Assembly: GCF_006542375.1 (NCBI RefSeq)
Contig: NZ_CP038143.1
Location: forward strand, 1,364,001-1,428,000
Direction: 5' to 3'
Length of the DNA stretch: 64,000 bases
Source: Oecophyllibacter saccharovorans
Lineage (GTDB): Bacteria; Pseudomonadota; Alphaproteobacteria; Acetobacterales; Acetobacteraceae
Shown here: in pieces, positions 5,667 to 14,095 of the stretch
How positions within the stretch are numbered: position 1 is the first letter of the stretch
Layout of the letters: every line of letters starts with the position of its first letter
Translations under genes and position numbers: made by a program
The notes under the pieces: generated by a model
Told to the model about the DNA's origin: nothing
What the model saw: the letters and a program-made list of their open reading frames with translations, nothing else
Databases searched by the model: none

Positions 5667-5693
5667 ACGGCCCCCTTCCGGTTCAGGGGCCGT
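5667..5693. terminator. Hairpin between convergent genes
   Basis: ACGGCCCC (5667-5674) pairs perfectly with GGGGCCGT (5686-5693) across an 11-nt loop, lying between the ABC transporter stop and the minus-strand stop at 5683. It could end transcription from either side, but no T-run follows on either strand. Confidence 0.45.
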
Positions 5694-6621
5694 GAAAGGC
5701 CGGGTCGCGCGGGGTGGGTGAGGGTTCCAGCGCCGGGATGTGAAAGCCCTGGTTGAGGCGCGCGACCCATTGCCCCGTCCAGTTTTTCTGCGCCGTGACG
5801 TAGCTGCGCGCTGCCGCGACATGACCGATCTCCTGCCGGTCCCAGCCCTGCAGGGGAGCCAGCAGGTGGGTGGTGCCGGGCTTTGTGGGCGCCAGCAGCA
5901 GGTCCACGGTCATCACCTGAGCCGGGGGCAGGGAAGCGCTGGAAGCCCCAGCGCCATCTTCAGCGGTCTGGGGGCGGAACAGGCGCCAGCCTGACATGAT
6001 CATGAGGGGCGGCAGGGGCATGTCCAGGGCGTGGAGGCGGGCGATGGTTTCAGTGATGAGTGGATTGAAGCTGACCGTCTGCTGGCCCAGCAGGGTCGGG
6101 CTCAGAAAAGTGCACTGCGTTTCACGCGGAAGCTCCCTGAGCTGGGTCATGTAGTTCCGGTCATCATGGCAGGCTGCCATCATGGTATCGGCAATGGCAG
6201 GGGGAAGCGGCGTGGGACTCACCTGTACGACGAGCAGGCCGGTCACCTTTCCGCCTGTTCCGACCGGGCCGGTGAGGCGGACAAAGGCAAGATAGGAGAA
6301 GCTGGCTGGCGGCGGCGTCTGCGCGGCGAGCAGGGGGTGCCAGGTCCCTTCAGGCAGGGGAAGGACAAAAGCCCCCAGCGGGACGGAACCCTGAAGGCTC
6401 TCACGCAGGTCCGGATAGGTGAAGCGCGCCTGCGGGACGGCCGCAGCGGAATCTGCGGGGCCCGTCTTTTCAAGAGATTCGGCAGAGCCGGGCAGCCAGG
6501 GGCACTGGGCCTTGAGGAAAGGGGTGGGAAAGAACGCCGCCAACCCCAGCCCCGCAATCCCGACGAGCAGGGAGAGCCGCCAGAGAGGCGCCCGTTTCCA
6601 GAGCTGTCCGAAAGCGCTCAT
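5683..6621 (-). CDS. Membrane-anchored protein of unknown function, partner of the AAA-like gene
   Basis: I do not recognise a family. The 312-residue protein has one N-terminal membrane segment (about residues 15-35) and a large soluble remainder rich in Pro, Ala and Leu, probably periplasmic. Cysteines are few (FLKAQCPW, AACHDD, TQCTF). The start is fixed at the ATG at 6621 by a strong AAGGAGG Shine-Dalgarno six bases upstream; two earlier in-frame ATGs lie in or before that site. It follows the AAA-like gene by 56 bp on the same strand, suggesting one operon and a shared role. Confidence 0.7.
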   Translation of the reverse strand: MSAFGQLWKRAPLWRLSLLVGIAGLGLAAFFPTPFLKAQCPWLPGSAESLEKTGPADSAAAVPQARFTYPDLRESLQGSVPLGAFVLPLPEGTWHPLLAAQTPPPASFSYLAFVRLTGPVGTGGKVTGLLVVQVSPTPLPPAIADTMMAACHDDRNYMTQLRELPRETQCTFLSPTLLGQQTVSFNPLITETIARLHALDMPLPPLMIMSGWRLFRPQTAEDGAGASSASLPPAQVMTVDLLLAPTKPGTTHLLAPLQGWDRQEIGHVAAARSYVTAQKNWTGQWVARLNQGFHIPALEPSPTPRDPAFHGP

Positions 6622-6677
6622 GCGCTCCTCCTTCATGTTCTTCCCCACATTTCTGCCAGTCTTGAAGCCGGGGGCGG

Positions 6678-8096
6678 TTATACCCCTTTTGTGACCAGGC
6701 GACGGGCCTGCAGGCTGCTCGGAACGACCTGCAGGCGGAATGAGCGGTCATCATCAGACGGGCTTTGGGGCGGGGCTGCAATGAGCTCCACCCAGTCATA
6801 GCCCTGCTGGCGTGCCAGGATCAGGTCGTCGCCGATCAGGCTGTCCAGGTTGTTCAGCACCGTCTTGCCATCGGTCATGGTCCCCAGCTGTTCCATAAGG
6901 CGGTATATCAGCGCCGGGTCGACGCCGCCTGGGGGGAGATGCAGCCCGTAGCTTTCCACCAGGGCTTCGGCCTCGCGGGCCAGGCGTTGCGCCAGGTCAC
7001 GCCCCTGCAGGGGGTCAAAGAAATAAGCCCGATCGACAAGAGCCAGCAGCGCTGGGGCCAGCCCGCTCTTCTGCCAGACTTCTTCCTGCTGAAAAGCGGG
7101 CGTTCGGGAAGATCCAGCGGCTTCCGTTGCGTCCGGAGTGCCTGTTTCAGCTACCGGTTCAATTGTCGGCTGCCTGTCCACGATAGCGCTGAGGATGAAG
7201 ATGGCCTCGCCTGCAGGCAGCTCTTCACCTGTGCGGGGATCGGTGATCTGTCCGGTTTCACAGGCGCGTTGCAGGAAATGAAGGGCCGGGTTGCGCAGCG
7301 GGTCGCTTCCGGTCGGGGTGAGCCCGTCCAGCAGAAGGACACTGGCAGGATTGCGCCGCAGAGCATCAGCGATCTGCTGAAGAAAGGGGGTTTCATCGCT
7401 GCTGTCAGCAGGGTCAGGCGTGGCAGGGGCCTGGCGCAGGTCGAGCGTCAGCAGCGGGCGGTGCAGCAGGGTGGCCAGCTGGCGGGCAAACCAGCCCTTG
7501 CCGGTATGGGCAGGGCCACTGAAGAGAAACACGGCGACCGGATGGATATGCGCGTTGCTTTCCGTAGCGCCGGCCATAACGCTTCCCCGGGAAACCTGGG
7601 ACAACGGTGCCTGGCGTGCCAGGCGGTGGCGCAGAAAGCGGGCCACGTCTTCGCAGATTTCCCGGTGGCCGTCCACGCGGGCCTGCAGGGCGGCTGCCAG
7701 CTCGCCCGGTTGCAGGGTTTTCTCGTGCTGCCTGCGAAGCAGCTGCGCTTCGACATGGCGGCGACGGGTGAAACGCTCCAGAAGCCGGGTGAGAACAGTC
7801 CGCCTGCGCTGCAGGCCGCGCGCTGCCAGGCGGTCGCCCCGTTTTTCAAACACAAGCCCGGCCAGGGCCGCCCCCAGCCCGAGCAGCCCCAGCGGCAGAT
7901 ACCAGGGCCGTCCTTTGTCAATCAGGCCGAAAACCGCTTTTCTTCCTGAAGCCAGCAGCCCGCTTTTCCAGGAAGCGGGTGAAGAGACGGGATGGAGCCC
8001 ATGAAGCAGAAGCGCTACCTGGACGGCCGAAAGAATCAGGAAGGCCAGCACCATGTAAGGCATCGCCCGGTAAAGCAGGGGGTGAGGCTGTTTCAT
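6678..8096 (-). CDS. Membrane-anchored degenerate Clp/Hsp100-like AAA+ protein
   Basis: 472 residues. Two membrane segments (about 12-32 and 66-84) are followed by a basic linker and a module aligned by eye with the second AAA domain of ClpA/ClpB. The pre-domain helix ends in VDGHREICEDVARFLRHRL (about 141-159), in the place of the usual VxGQdeAv. Catalytic positions look lost. Walker A reads GPAHTGKGW (194-202) with Gly for the Thr/Ser. Walker B is VLLLDG (253-258) with Gly for Glu. The segment equivalent to the PEFLNRID arginine finger reads PALLALVD (348-355). The sensor-2 GAR is replaced by TDGK. It is probably a structural or nucleotide-sensing scaffold rather than an active unfoldase; function unknown. 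Confidence 0.75.
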   Translation of the reverse strand: MKQPHPLLYRAMPYMVLAFLILSAVQVALLLHGLHPVSSPASWKSGLLASGRKAVFGLIDKGRPWYLPLGLLGLGAALAGLVFEKRGDRLAARGLQRRRTVLTRLLERFTRRRHVEAQLLRRQHEKTLQPGELAAALQARVDGHREICEDVARFLRHRLARQAPLSQVSRGSVMAGATESNAHIHPVAVFLFSGPAHTGKGWFARQLATLLHRPLLTLDLRQAPATPDPADSSDETPFLQQIADALRRNPASVLLLDGLTPTGSDPLRNPALHFLQRACETGQITDPRTGEELPAGEAIFILSAIVDRQPTIEPVAETGTPDATEAAGSSRTPAFQQEEVWQKSGLAPALLALVDRAYFFDPLQGRDLAQRLAREAEALVESYGLHLPPGGVDPALIYRLMEQLGTMTDGKTVLNNLDSLIGDDLILARQQGYDWVELIAAPPQSPSDDDRSFRLQVVPSSLQARRLVTKGV

Positions 8097-8152
8097 GCAG
8101 GGCCCTTCAGTTGGACGAACTCAGTGGACACTGTCTGGTTTGCGCGCCAGCG

Positions 8153-8196
8153 GGGTTCTTCAGAGCTGTAACAGCTGGCGTGCGGGCTGAGAACCC
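8153..8196 (+). promoter_or_regulatory. Structured leader element upstream of rimP-nusA
   Basis: GGGTTCT-T-CAG (8153-8163) pairs with CTGAGAACCC (8187-8196): ten base pairs with one bulged T. They enclose a second hairpin, AGCTG-TAA-CAGCT (8164-8176). It sits between the divergent AAA-like gene and rimP, upstream of a terminator-like hairpin. It matches no riboswitch I recognise. A weak promoter-like pair (TTGCAT, 17 bp, TAGAGA) lies just downstream, near 8203-8231. Confidence 0.4.
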
Positions 8197-8269
8197 GAAC
8201 GCTTGCATTCCCCACCAGGAGCGCCTAGAGAAGACAGAGTTTCACTTTCATCTTCCATCAGTATTGGGG

Positions 8270-8300
8270 GGTGGCCCTGACGGGCCGCCTTTTTTGTTTT
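8270..8300 (+). terminator. Strong intrinsic terminator-like hairpin at the rimP start (possible attenuator)
   Basis: GGTGGCCC (8270-8277) pairs with GGGCCGCC (8282-8289), eight pairs including one wobble, with a TGAC loop, followed by seven T (8290-8295 plus downstream T-runs). No plus-strand gene lies upstream, so it must terminate a leader or small RNA transcript. The only usable rimP start codon (TTG at 8299) lies in its T-tract. Confidence 0.65.
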
Positions 8301-8967
8301 GGACCAGATTCCCACTGATACGCCTGCTGCCGGGGCTTCCCATGAAGTAGGACAGGCAGGTGCCGGCGCCTCAGAGCACGGTATCCTGCGGCTGACCGGG
8401 CTTGAATCCCGCATTGCCGACCGCATCGCTCCGACCCTGGCTGATATGGGGTTCGCGCTGGTGCGGCTGGCTGTTCTGGGGCGCGAGACGCCGACCGTGC
8501 AGATCATGGCCGACCGCAGCGATGGCGGGCAGATCTCCGTTGAGGATTGCGAGCAGATCAGCCACGCCGTCGGCGCCGTGCTGGACGTGGACGATCCCAT
8601 CCCCGGCGCCTGGACCCTGGAAGTCTCTTCAGCAGGCATTGACCGCCCCATGACACGTGTGGGCGACTGGGAACGTTTTGCAGGTCACCTGGTGAAGGTG
8701 GAGATGGACGTGCCGATTGACGGCCGCAAGCGTTTTGCCGGCACCATCACAGGCCTGCGCGGAGACAAGGGCCATGAAGCGGCGGTGCTGCGCATGGAGG
8801 GCGATGAGGAGGTCACCCTGCCCCTGCGCGAGATGCGCAAGGCGCGCCTGGTTCTGACCGACGCGCTGATCGAGGCCAGTGCGGCCCCGGGAAGCGCGGA
8901 CGGGCAAAACAACCCCCGCATCCCGAAACTGAACCCGCAGAAGCCGGGCAAGAGCAAGAAGAACTGA
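8299..8967 (+). CDS. rimP: Ribosome maturation factor RimP
   Basis: 30S subunit assembly factor and first gene of the nusA-infB block. The conserved core runs from about residue 34 ([24 protein letters not shown]) through [19 protein letters not shown] and [11 protein letters not shown]. The 222-residue length exceeds the usual 150-200 because of an N-terminal stretch and a basic tail ([14 protein letters not shown]). The start is problematic: the only ATG/GTG/TTG in frame ahead of the core is the TTG at 8299, with no Shine-Dalgarno and inside the T-run of a hairpin. The frame closes upstream at the stop at 8278-8280. Confidence 0.92.
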
Positions 8968-9006: not shown

Positions 9007-10656
9007 ATGGATACATCGGTAATGCGTCCCGAACTGCTGCTGGTTGCAGATGCGGTATCGCGGGAAAAGAACATTGATCGCGACCAGGTCCTGGAGGCCA
9101 TGGAACAGGCGATCCAGAAAGCCGGCCGGGCCAAGTACGGCCATGAGAAGGACATCCGCGCCTCCATTGACCGCAAAACCGGCGAAGTGCGGCTGAGCCG
9201 CTGGACGGAAGTGGTCGATGAGGTCGAAAACGAGGCCACCCAGATCGCCCTGAACATCGCCCGCAAGTTCCAACCTGAGATCACGGCGGGTGAATACCTG
9301 ATCGACCCCCTGCCGCCGATCGATTTCGGTCGTATCGCCGCCCAGACCGCCAAGCAGGTGATCGTGCAGCGCGTGCGCGAGTTCGAGCGCAAGCGGCAGT
9401 ATGACGAATTCAAGGATCGCGTCGGCGAGATCATCAACGGCACGGTCAAGCAGACTGAATACGGCAACCTCATGGTTGAGCTGGGAACGGCTGAGGGCCT
9501 GCTGCGGCGCGACGAGCTGATCCCGCGCGAGACCTTCCGCAATTCAGACCGGATTCGCGCCTATATCTACGATGTCCGTGACGAGCAGCGGGGCCCGCAG
9601 ATCTTCCTGTCGCGCACGCATCCGGGCTTCCTGGCGAAGCTTTTCGCCCAGGAGGTGCCCGAGATCTATGACGGCATCATCGAGATCAAGGGCGTGGCCC
9701 GGGATCCGGGTTCGCGTGCCAAGATGGCTGTGGTCTCCAATGACCCTTCCATCGATCCTGTGGGCGCCTGCGTCGGCATGCGCGGCTCCCGCGTTCAGGC
9801 GGTCGTTGCCGAGCTGCAGGGCGAAAAGATCGATATCATTCCCTGGAGCCCCCATCCTGCCACCTTCGTGGTGAATGCGCTGGCGCCGGCTGAAGTGACC
9901 AAGGTGGTCATGGATGAGGAAGCAGGACGCGTCGAGGCGGTGGTGCCAGACGACCAGCTTTCGCTGGCCATCGGCCGCCGCGGCCAGAACGTGCGCCTGG
10001 CCAGCCAGCTGACGCATTGGGACATTGACATCCTGACTGAAGCCGAGGAATCGGAGCGTCGCCAGGAGGAATTCCGCAAACGCAGCCAGCTCCTGATCGA
10101 CGCGCTGGATGTGGATGAGGTGATCGCGGGCCTGCTGGTGACGGAAGGCTATCATACCGTTGAGGACCTGGCTTATGCCGAGCCTGCGGACCTGCACGAT
10201 ATCGAAGGCTTTGACGAAGGTGTGGCCGAAGAACTGATGGCGCGCGCCAACGCCCATCTGCTCGAAATCGAACGCCAGCTTGACGAAAAGCGCAAGGCGC
10301 TTGGGGTGAGCGATGATCTGGTGGCACTGGAAGCCTTCACGCCGCGCATTCTGGTGGAGCTGGGCGAGAAGGGCATCAAGACCCTGGATGATCTGGCCGA
10401 TCTCGCCGGTGCGGAGCTGGTCGAGATGCTGGGCGCGGAGCTGCTGACGGAAGAGGAAGCCAACGAGATCGTCATGGCTGCGCGCGCCCACTGGTTTGAA
10501 GATGAAGAGGGAGCGCCCTCCGGCACTGAAGCTTCTGCGGCTTCTGATGGGGTGGAAAAAGCCGATTCGGAACCGGAAGCCGAACCGGGAAAGGTCAAGG
10601 TCAAGGCTGAAGCGCCGGCTGAGAACAGCGAAGCAGGAGGGTCGACCAACGGCTGA
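9007..10656 (+). CDS. nusA: Transcription termination/antitermination factor NusA
   Basis: RNA polymerase elongation factor that modulates pausing, termination and antitermination. 549 residues: N-terminal RNAP-binding domain (about 1-125), S1 domain (about 130-200), two KH domains (about 230-345, with [13 protein letters not shown] and [13 protein letters not shown]), then two C-terminal acidic repeats and a low-complexity acidic tail. Start ATG at 9007 with GGAGG about ten bases upstream. Its product may feed back on the hairpin ahead of rimP, as leader-termination autoregulation is known for nusA operons in other bacteria; that link is inference here. Confidence 0.97.
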
Positions 10657-11353: not shown

Positions 11354-14095
11354 ATGAGCGACGGCAACGAGCGCAACGAAGACGGCAAACAGGAAGGCAA
11401 GCAGACGGCTGCCGGCACTGCGGAAGGCGCGGCAAAACCGGGTCAGGCGCGGTCCGGCCGCCTGTCGCTGCGCCCGGGCGGACGCGCGGAAGGCGGGCGC
11501 ACCGTGGAGGCTGGTTCCGTGCGCCAGAGCTTCAGCCATGGGCGCTCCAAGGAAGTGCGGGTGGAAGTGCGCAAGCCCAAGCGCAGCAATCCCGGTGCCG
11601 GCGGTCGTGTCGGCCGCGGTCCTGTCGGTGCGCGTGGTCTCACGGCTTCCGAGCAGGAGAAGCGCCAGCGCGTCCTTATGGAGATGCAGCAGCGTCGCGC
11701 GGCTGAAGAGGCTGAGCAGAAAGAGGCCGAGCAGATCCGTATCCGTTCTGCAGCCGAGGAGGCAGCACGTCTCAAGGCAGAGGAAGCCGCTCGTCTTGAG
11801 GAAGCCCGCATCGCCAGGGAAAACGAAGCCCGTGAAAGCGCTGAACGGGCTCAGGAAGCGGCTGCGCAGCGCCCAGCTGCTGCAGCGGCGCCTGCCGAGC
11901 CGCCGCCGCTGAGCGGCGCTGAGCAGCTGGGCGGTGTTCAGCTGGCCGAGCCCGTCAAGCGCCTGCGCCCCTTGGCCGAACGCGCGATCATGCCCGAACG
12001 TCCGGTCAGCGCGCGTGCGGCAGGTGGCGGTGTTCCGGGTCGCAGCAGCGAGACCCTGCACCTCCGTGGGCGCAGTGCGCCAGCGGCTCCTGCAGGGCCC
12101 GGTGATGAGGAGCCGCGCCGTGGCGGCGGGGCTGCACGCCGCGGTGCTACGCCGCAGCGCCGTGCGGTTTCGCCGCGCAAGGGCGGGGGCAATGAGCGCC
12201 GCTCAGGCCGGATCGACGTGCGCGCGGCCATTGAGGGGGATGACGGCAAAACCCGCTCCCTGGCTTCGGTGCGCAGGCAGCGTGATCGCGAACGCCGCCA
12301 GGCCGAGCTGGAGCGCCTGCGTTCCGACCAGGTGCGCGTTGTCCGTGACGTGACGGTGCCGGAGACGATCACGGTCGGCGAGCTGGCCAACCGTATGGCG
12401 GCCCGTCAGGGCGAGGTTATCAAGGCCCTCATGAAGATGGGCGTCATGGCCACCGCAGCCCAGATCATTGATGCAGATACCGCTGAGCTGGTGGTCAATG
12501 AGTTCGGCCACCGCGTCAAGCGCGTTGCCGACAGCGATGTCGAGCTCGGTATTGAGGGCGTCGAGGATAGGCCTGAAGACCTGAAGGCGCGCCCGCCGGT
12601 CGTCACCGTGATGGGCCATGTCGATCATGGCAAGACCTCCCTGCTCGATGCCCTGCGCACGACAGATGTGACCAGCGGCGAGGCAGGCGGTATCACGCAG
12701 CATATCGGTGCCTATCAGGTCACCCTGCCCTCCAAGCAGAAGGTCACCTTCATCGACACGCCGGGCCATGAAGCCTTCACCTCCATGCGCGCCCGCGGTG
12801 CTTCAGTCACGGATGTGGTGGTGCTGGTGGTTGCCGCTGATGACGGCGTGATGCCGCAGACCATTGAGGCCATCAAGCACGCTCAGGCGGCTGAAGTGCC
12901 GATGATCGTCGCCATCAACAAGATGGACAAGCCCGGCGCCAATCCCGATCGCGTGCGCAGCGAACTGCTGACGCATGGCGTGGTGGTCGAGAGCATGGGT
13001 GGCGAGACCCAGGAAGTCGAGGTGTCTGCGCTCAAGAAGCAGGGGCTGGACAAGGTTCTTGAAGCCATTCTCCTGCAGGCGGAAATCCTTGACCTCAAGG
13101 CCAACCCGAATCGCCCGGCGGAAGGGGCGGTCATCGAGAGTCGCCTTGACCGCGGGCGTGGCGCTGTGGCGACGGTCCTGGACCAGAAAGGGACCCTGCG
13201 CCGTGGTGACATCGTCGTGGCCGGCACGGAATGGGGGCGGGTGCGCGCCCTGCTTGATGACCGCGGCAAGCAGATCAAGGAAGCTGCTCCTGCGACCCCG
13301 GTTGAAATCCTGGGCCTGACCGGCGTGCCTGAAGCCGGCGTGTCCTTCGTGGTCGTTGAGAACGATAACCGGGCGCGCGAGATCAGCGAGTTCCGCCAGC
13401 GCAAGCAGCGTGAGAAAGCCAATGCCCTGCAGGTGGCTGCACGCGGCACGCTGGACCAGATGCTGGCCCGCATCCAGGCCGGGGAGCAGAAGCAGGTTGC
13501 CCTTCTCATCAAGGCGGATGTGCAGGGTTCGGCCGAAGCCATTGCCGCGACCGTGGAGAAGCTGTCGCACGAAGAGGTGGCCGTGCGCGTTCTCAATGCC
13601 AGCGTGGGACAGATCACGGAAAGTGATGTTCAGCTGGCCAAGGCTTCGGATGCCCTCCTGATCGCGTTCAACGTGCGCGCCACCACCCAGGCCCGTCAGC
13701 TGGCGCAGCGTGAAGGGGTGGAGATCCGGTATTATTCCATCATCTACCAGGTGGCCGATGATGTGGAACAGCTGGTGCGCGGCAAGATCGCGCCCAAGCA
13801 TCGCGAGAAGTTCCTGGGTTATGCCGAGATCCGCCAGGTCTTCAACATCACGCGCGTCGGCAAGGTTGCCGGCAGCTACGTGACCGAAGGGGTGGTGAAG
13901 CGCGGTTGCGGTGTGCGTCTGCTGCGTGAGGGCGTGGTCATCCACGAAGGTGAGCTCAGCCAGCTCAAGCGCTTCAAGGACGATGTGCGCGAAGTCGCCC
14001 GCGGTTATGAATGCGGCCTGTCCTTTGCAGGCTACAACGACCTGCGTGAGGGCGACGTGGTGGAATGCTATGAGATGGAAGAGGTGCCGGCGTGA
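11354..14095 (+). CDS. infB: Translation initiation factor IF-2
   Basis: GTPase that delivers initiator tRNA to the 30S subunit. 913 residues. A long N-terminal region rich in Arg, Gly, Ala and Glu, with an EE/AR coiled-coil-like stretch (about 95-175), precedes the conserved IF2-N segment ([15 protein letters not shown]). The G domain follows with P-loop GHVDHGKT starting at residue 421, DTPGHEAF and NKMDK, then domains II, III and the fMet-tRNA binding C-terminus. Start ATG at 11354 after an AAGGA site. The stop overlaps the rbfA GTG by 4 bp. Confidence 0.97.

Follow-up and report, generated by a model that had tools for sequence, protein, structure and literature searches.

A membrane-anchored Clp/Hsp100 D2-like protein of Oecophyllibacter saccharovorans that lacks its motor site appears to be the remainder of a three-gene Acetobacteraceae operon

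The window, a stretch of 64,000 nucleotides of the Oecophyllibacter saccharovorans genome, contains two adjacent genes that we call B and C. Gene B (6678..8096, minus strand), defined by its open reading frame and by alignment of orthologues, encodes a 472-residue membrane-anchored protein that resembles the second AAA+ domain (D2) of the Clp/Hsp100 proteins and is catalytically degenerate here. Hydropathy predicts two N-terminal transmembrane helices, at residues 7-25 (8022..8078, minus strand) and 65-83 (7848..7904, minus strand), which are followed by a single AAA+ domain with neither an N-domain nor a D1 ring. Gene C (5683..6621, minus strand) lies 56 bp downstream of B, begins with MSAF as most of its orthologues do, and encodes a 312-residue protein with one predicted membrane helix, an alpha/beta domain that probably lies on the periplasmic side, and a conserved cysteine pair (C151/C170). 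On the other side, an interval of 202 bases (8097..8298) separates B from the divergent gene rimP (8299..8967, plus strand), which anchors the synteny of the locus and is followed by nusA (9007-10656) and infB (11354-14095). The original prediction had described a 472-residue protein with the layout of a ClpA/ClpB second AAA domain, two N-terminal membrane helices and a 312-residue membrane-anchored protein 56 bp downstream; all of this was borne out by the positions of the reading frames, the hydropathy prediction and homology to D2-type orthologues.

A complete ATPase site (Walker A Lys and Thr/Ser, Walker B Asp and Glu, sensor 1, arginine finger and sensor 2) is present in the orthologues and absent in window B. 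In alignments of 8 and of 107 rows, the former Walker A motif reads GPAHTGKG where orthologues have GPPGTGKT (7494..7517, minus strand), with Gly and Lys retained and Thr changed to Gly. The former Walker B reads VLLLDG for VVLLDE (7323..7340, minus strand), the arginine-finger stretch PALLALVDR for PEVLNRLDR with Leu at the finger (7029..7055, minus strand), and sensor 2 GTMTDGKT for GxxASARD, so that TDGK stands where orthologues have ASAR (6861..6884, minus strand). These four losses had been predicted and were confirmed by both alignments. Two more had been missed: sensor 1 is FILSAIVD against F-x-LTSNIA, with SAI for TSN and thus Asn changed to Ile (7176..7199, minus strand), and by orthologue alignment pore loop 1 of the orthologues (GYVGSD) is deleted between residues 237 and 238 (7384..7387, minus strand). 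Altogether, window B retains 2 of the eight motor positions in the 107-row alignment, the Walker A Lys and the Walker B Asp.

The AAA+ descent of window B is weak when judged from its own sequence: its best NCBIfam match is ClpA (E 1.8e-4), and all of its matches to the Pfam AAA models are below the cut-off. Judged by family, the descent looks firm. Window B aligns with intact AAA+ orthologues along its full length at 34-41% identity, and a profile built from only six dead copies of B matches Clp/Hsp100 D2 structures (ClpE, ClpC and ClpB) with E values down to 2.8e-31 over up to about 280 residues. These sequence matches point firmly to a D2 domain with a small C-terminal subdomain.

Searching 60 genomes, one of them the window's own, yielded seven full-length B orthologues in other genera (35-41% identity), and all seven have complete motor sites (GPPGTGKT, GYVG, LLDEIEKAHPD, TSN, NR(L/I)DR and ASARD). 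C is directly downstream of B at all seven loci. Directly upstream is a third gene encoding about 200 aa, which we call A and which overlaps the start of B in 5 of the 7. From 182 pattern matches in public genomes, 126 relatives were confirmed, and among the best 80 of these 126 loci A, B and C occur together in 79. The exception is locus L103 of Bombella sp. ESL0385, which has no A and a degenerate B; we take it and genome G357 of our survey as one genome, as their B motifs agree. The genera carrying the operon among the best 80 of the 126 loci include Acetobacter, Gluconobacter, Gluconacetobacter, Asaia, Bombella, Neokomagataea, Novacetimonas and others. In the window genome, A was found neither in the interval 8097..8298, its place in orthologues, nor anywhere else by a genome-wide profile search, and we saw no second, intact B. 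A search of viral contigs for close relatives of window B returned 3 pattern matches and 0 relatives. The window pair thus appears, from this comparison of loci, to be a decayed form of a conserved three-gene operon of Acetobacteraceae. A limited look at the open-licence literature, covering first results, turned up no published account of this operon or of a motor switch, and the passages searched by word in two Gluconobacter oxydans screens (PMC8602642, PMC12041372) do not mention the locus.

We then surveyed 397 Acetobacteraceae genomes, an even draw from the larger family, calling B at E 1e-10 or better and scoring the eight motor positions in the window and 106 other loci. B is present in 107 of the 397 genomes, and 94 of these have all eight motor residues together with A and C. 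Five further genomes have a motor-type B: G072, which has A and C, carries Phe in place of the pore Tyr; in G188, G330 and G350, also with A and C, B is cut before sensor 2 and every upstream motif is present; and in G231 B has all eight residues, C is present, and the contig ends at the place of A. Motor-type B is therefore found in 99 of 107 genomes and A accompanies it in 98 of the 99, the other being G231. The remaining eight genomes have a degenerate B (G000, which is the window, G139, G357, G237, G085, G159, G181 and G224), and profile searches found A in none of the eight, genome-wide. C is retained in seven of them; G237 lacks C and its B also lacks the membrane helices. A survey of co-occurrence and residue conservation, as the original prediction had proposed, thus places C in 106 of 107 B genomes and a degenerate B in 8 of 107, all eight without A. 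The degenerate strings differ between lineages: in the order K, T, Y, D, E, N, R, R, the window reads KG-DGILK, G357 reads KTYNGSHH, and G181 and G224 read KKPEDTRR, while the B of G139 keeps five of the eight positions. This argues that the degenerate copies do not reflect one inherited state.

Genome-wide profiles give the same picture. The A profile matches 99 of the 397 genomes, 98 of them among the 107 B genomes (a frameshifted A in G124 is counted) and the other a weak match in G262. The C profile matches 116 genomes. These are all B genomes apart from G237, together with nine genomes whose C-like domains are weak and distant and with G073, which has C at the end of a contig and yielded no match for B. 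One distant C-like protein, in G226, reaches 17 bits with DUF6611 (E 0.006), below the cut-off of 27. When 385 genomes sampled from the class as a whole were searched, the B N-terminal profile had two matches, both in Acetobacteraceae, and the operon was not seen outside that family.

Neither C nor A has a match above any cut-off in Pfam or NCBIfam. The predicted structure of C, modelled from the window protein together with those 35 of the 80 loci that remained when filtered for length and redundancy, is a membrane helix with an alpha/beta domain (pLDDT 87, pTM 0.76). It has no Foldseek match at E 0.001 or better, and its top solved folds are Mog1 (1jhs, Z 8.3, rmsd 5.4, 159 aligned), TplEi (7.0), CyanoP (6.8) and DcrB (6.7), where a best Z of 7 to 8 is typical in the absence of a true relative. 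Mog1p, CyanoP, DcrB and TplEi, which presumably share one fold of the Mog1/PsbP-like type, thus head the list of folds for the C model with Z near background; their identity to C is only 6-11%, and the fold tells no function. The sequence of C is well kept: of 23 columns that at least 90% of 97 other C proteins share, window C retains 22, and the C proteins of the seven genomes with dead B retain 21-23. For A, a model from 44 of the 80 loci, after the same kinds of filter, predicts a beta-rich C-terminal domain (pLDDT 79) with no Foldseek match at E 0.001. The best solved match, vCBM60 (Z 6.0, rmsd 3.0, 83 aligned), is too weak to use as a fold assignment.

The motor losses can be placed on trees of RimP+NusA+InfB, built with FastTree for 92 genomes and with IQ-TREE for 43 of those 92 rows, the latter being used for tests. 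The stretch fetched for the other 15 of the 107 B genomes contains no rimP, nusA or infB, and these genomes are not included in the trees; the neighbours of the operon in these 15 include no helpful neighbour common to different genera, with gene calls that are rough. On both trees the dead-B lineages are scattered (INDEPENDENCE). G357 falls within Bombella beside two intact species, G139 beside the intact G029, and the pair G181/G224 beside G124. The further dead lineages are the window, the g86 pair and G237, the last of which is far off on a long branch. Parsimony counts 6 changes, 5 of them forced by strong branches. Grouping the six dead rows of the Bombella side as one clade is rejected (AU p 8e-7), as is grouping the window with G357 (p 5e-7). 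The window together with g86 is not rejected (AU p 0.395), so the loss in the window may be shared with g86; nor is the window together with the genus g125 (p 0.427), which contains intact B. An independent-pairs sign test of A loss against motor loss has five pairs, all in one direction, with p 0.0625, the floor for five pairs. The order of events is suggested by G124, the sister of the dead pair G181/G224, in which A is split over two frames by a frameshift and all motor residues of B are intact. If this frameshift is not a sequencing error, which is possible, this one genome suggests that A is lost first and the motor afterwards.

A gene that has lost its catalytic site may simply be on its way out. 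On that account, B and C have no use once A is missing and drift to loss, and the window shows an early stage. Several observations agree with it. Window B has kept least of its AAA large domain, where 27 of 86 conserved columns are retained against 44 of 85 elsewhere; in G181 and G224 the difference between the large domain and the rest is not significant. Both B and C change quickly after the loss of A: G357 and its nearest Bombella share 49% identity in B and 44-48% in C, compared with 96% in NusA, which fits relaxed or shifting selection. Additionally, the end point of the process can be loss of B, as G237 is without the B helices and C, and B was not seen in two further species of its genus.

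The surviving dead copies nonetheless carry signs of constraint that speak against plain decay. Between G181 and G224, both dead, omega of B is 0.058 (bootstrap 0.03-0.09), with 0.072 for C and 0.035 for NusA; in five intact control pairs omega of B is 0 to 0.05 in four and 0.25 in one. We did not use dN/dS for G085/G159 or for dead-intact pairs as evidence, as these are at or near saturation. Window B differs from G032 by 10 indel events, and the reading frames are open and the indels in frame. A simple model that charges half of the differences to the dead branch predicts about 4 stop codons per dead copy, and 0 were seen in 6 copies. C, as noted, keeps nearly all of its conserved columns beside a dead B. 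The same columns of B are also retained in separate dead lineages. We counted columns in 95 intact B proteins, obtained from the 99 non-degenerate ones by dropping the broken or cut copies of G188, G231, G330 and G350; 171 columns are conserved in ≥97% of the 95, and 28 of them persist in each of the five membrane-anchored dead lineages. Shuffling yields a mean of 4.6 (6.8 within domain) and a maximum of 15. Of the 35 columns that the other four anchored dead lineages keep, window B retains 28; of the 65 kept in no more than one, it retains 9 (p 7e-11). The same test without g86 gives 39 of 53 against 32 of 118 (p 1.5e-8). Taken together, these comparisons suggest that dead B is not simply decaying, with purifying selection indicated directly for G181/G224 and suggested only indirectly, by comparison with the other lineages, for the window. 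We consider plain decay unlikely.

The columns themselves indicate what was given up. In G022 numbering, 16 columns are lost in all seven anchored dead copies, including the Gly and Val of GYVG, the GG of KLTGGL and a Met-Asp that follows the second helix. Another 28 columns are retained by every one of the seven, including P13, L22, Q26 and G63 in the membrane part, G158, P159, G163 and K164 in the P-loop, and a run behind the former arginine finger (D312, F317, L320, A330, E334, Y340-L342 and D350). Since the dead-copy profile still matches Clp D2 structures, this pattern of lost and kept columns indicates that the fold of dead B is apparently kept and that threading and hydrolysis have probably been given up. 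B here would then be a pseudoenzyme in the sense of a protein that descends from an enzyme with a complete site and has lost the catalytic residues. The original prediction of an undescribed envelope module built on a dead AAA ring stands in part. An envelope operon does combine a dead AAA+ protein, which shows signs of selection, with a partner anchored in the membrane, and the suggested role of scaffold or nucleotide sensor may apply to that protein; however, the dead ring is not the basis of the module, as B has every readable motor residue in 98 of 107 genomes and the normal operon contains the third gene A.

The reading that we favor is that B has, or had, two jobs. The ancestral machine would be a three-protein inner-membrane system of Acetobacteraceae, of which the window pair is the remainder. 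In it, B would be a single-ring, membrane-anchored motor of the Hsp100 D2 type with a pore loop and a complete ATPase site, and A and C would be single-pass membrane proteins whose main domains probably face the periplasm. We infer the topology, the contacts among A, B and C, the threading of A and the scaffold role of B. The first job would be ATP-driven threading that serves A, with A either a substrate or an adaptor that brings substrates; the motor is suggested to act on or through A because the losses of A and of the motor coincide. The second would be an ATP-independent scaffold that holds or positions C, suggested because dead B and C persist under constraint. In the window genome and several other lineages A was lost, which would end the need for the first job only. 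With one or another of its motor elements (pore loop, Glu of Walker B, finger, sensors) then gone as well, B would remain open, apparently constrained and membrane-anchored beside C as a pseudo-ATPase, perhaps binding nucleotide through its Gly-Lys without hydrolysis. We would put the probability of this two-job reading at roughly 0.6. We hold more tentatively, at a little short of even odds, the wider claim that on at least five occasions, always alongside loss of A, an Hsp100-type membrane motor with two separable jobs has become a pseudo-ATPase, with A the threaded client and an ATP-independent job on C keeping the dead ring in place.

The kept P-loop could also mean that dead B has acquired a new function as a nucleotide sensor, binding ATP or ADP and signaling over the membrane to C without hydrolysis. 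G158, P159, G163 and K164 are indeed kept in 7 of 7 anchored dead copies, and on the strength of the Gly-Lys dead B perhaps binds nucleotide. However, the retained P-loop may be structural, and Mg-ATP should bind poorly: of the 7 anchored copies, 6 lack the Thr that follows the Lys and binds Mg, and 6 lack the Walker B Asp. A sensor seems to us decidedly improbable. We give even less credit to the idea that dead B enters mixed rings and there supplies the missing part of another AAA+ protein's active site, as LAP1 and LULL1 activate Torsin according to the available text of PMC4358337. Such a role requires an arginine finger, and we reject it on the missing finger: the position is Leu in window B and non-Arg in 5 of 8 dead copies. 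The window genome shows no second intact B. Finally, the original prediction had taken orthologues with intact Walker motifs as a sign of sequence error here, and such orthologues exist, but a sequencing or assembly error is very unlikely to the point of being negligible because six of the eight motor positions are altered together in an open, in-frame reading frame, A is missing genome-wide, and the same pattern occurs in seven other genomes on separate lineages.

To our knowledge, dead AAA+ subunits have mostly been studied in single lineages, which makes the driver of catalytic loss hard to tell. Here the same loss occurs on separate branches and goes together with one partner gene; intact sister species serve as controls, and one genome appears to be an intermediate. 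The pattern would separate the motor from the non-motor job within one protein and points at A as the client or adaptor. If the recurrent switch is true, the states before, in between (G124) and after would make the role of a non-catalytic AAA+ ring directly testable.

Among known systems, the closest by descent is the second AAA+ domain of ClpB, ClpC and ClpE. B is homologous to this domain over about 290 residues, and intact B has all of the motor residues and the GYVG pore loop 1. Unlike these proteins, B forms one ring, carries two N-terminal membrane helices, and has no N-domain, no D1 and no ClpP-docking tripeptide; the window copy is also without the motor site. The loop between sensor 1 and the arginine finger, which we take to be the ClpP dock of ClpA, ClpC and ClpE, shows the tripeptide pattern in 0 of 94 readable intact copies of B (one more is unreadable), and on this ground we reject ClpP as a partner. 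The pore loop, the complete site, the membrane tether and the missing tripeptide suggest that intact B is a remodelling or extraction motor rather than a part of ClpP-linked degradation. Window B would thus belong by descent to the Hsp100/Clp D2 group and, by its defining features, would not be an Hsp100 ATPase. Skd3 is a single D2-type ring, and its solved chains match the B profile (E 9e-34 to 3e-31). The available text of PMC9934407 and PMC7343390 describes Skd3/CLPB of mitochondria as an intermembrane-space AAA+ disaggregase whose N-terminal part is not AAA; it has ankyrin repeats where B has membrane helices, and it is active. A parallel for a dead AAA+ fold at a membrane is Torsin, an AAA+ protein likened to the D2 of ClpB, with its activators LAP1 and LULL1, which are membrane-anchored AAA+ folds without nucleotide motifs (PMC4358337, text available in part). 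There, the dead fold of LAP1 keeps an arginine finger and activates a live partner, whereas in window B the motor itself appears to have died and the finger is gone.

A terminator-like hairpin followed by a T run lies at window positions 8270-8295, directly 5′ of the rimP ORF and ahead of rimP-nusA-infB, and reads GGTGGCCC-TGAC-GGGCCGCC-TTTTTT. Using a script scan of rimP leaders, we found a hairpin with a T run in 86 of 92 Acetobacteraceae genomes, at least one of these matches being a different hairpin, and several of the leaders shared an identical hairpin sequence. No Rfam family matched the rimP-leader hairpin at its gathering score. The hairpin is a candidate attenuator of the rimP-nusA-infB operon.

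The 16S rRNA gene gave no match in the window genome assembly (1.94 Mb in two contigs, the second of only 2500 bases), in a search whose control also missed 5 of 14 genomes. PMC10645730 describes the sole rrn operon of Oecophyllibacter as plasmid-borne, a location that the missing 16S match would fit.

Distant domains resembling C, the membrane-anchored partner protein, are encoded by other Acetobacteraceae (L250-L262; for example L253:5729-7372, L255:1926-4093, and L254:5428-7419) and carry a 'PLPPGEW'-like motif and paired Cys. These proteins look exported, with some arranged in tandem and some fused to DUF2061, the only part that Pfam marked in the eight proteins scanned.

The AAA+ protein B is further reduced in genome G237 (L238:6452-7456), where it has 334 aa without predicted membrane helices and C is gone; no B was seen in two other species of this genus. 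For window B as a lone query, the single best solved structure was the plant Clp-like protein SMAX1 (PDB 9kkx_D), a weak match (E 0.00096) that nevertheless outranks every bacterial Clp.
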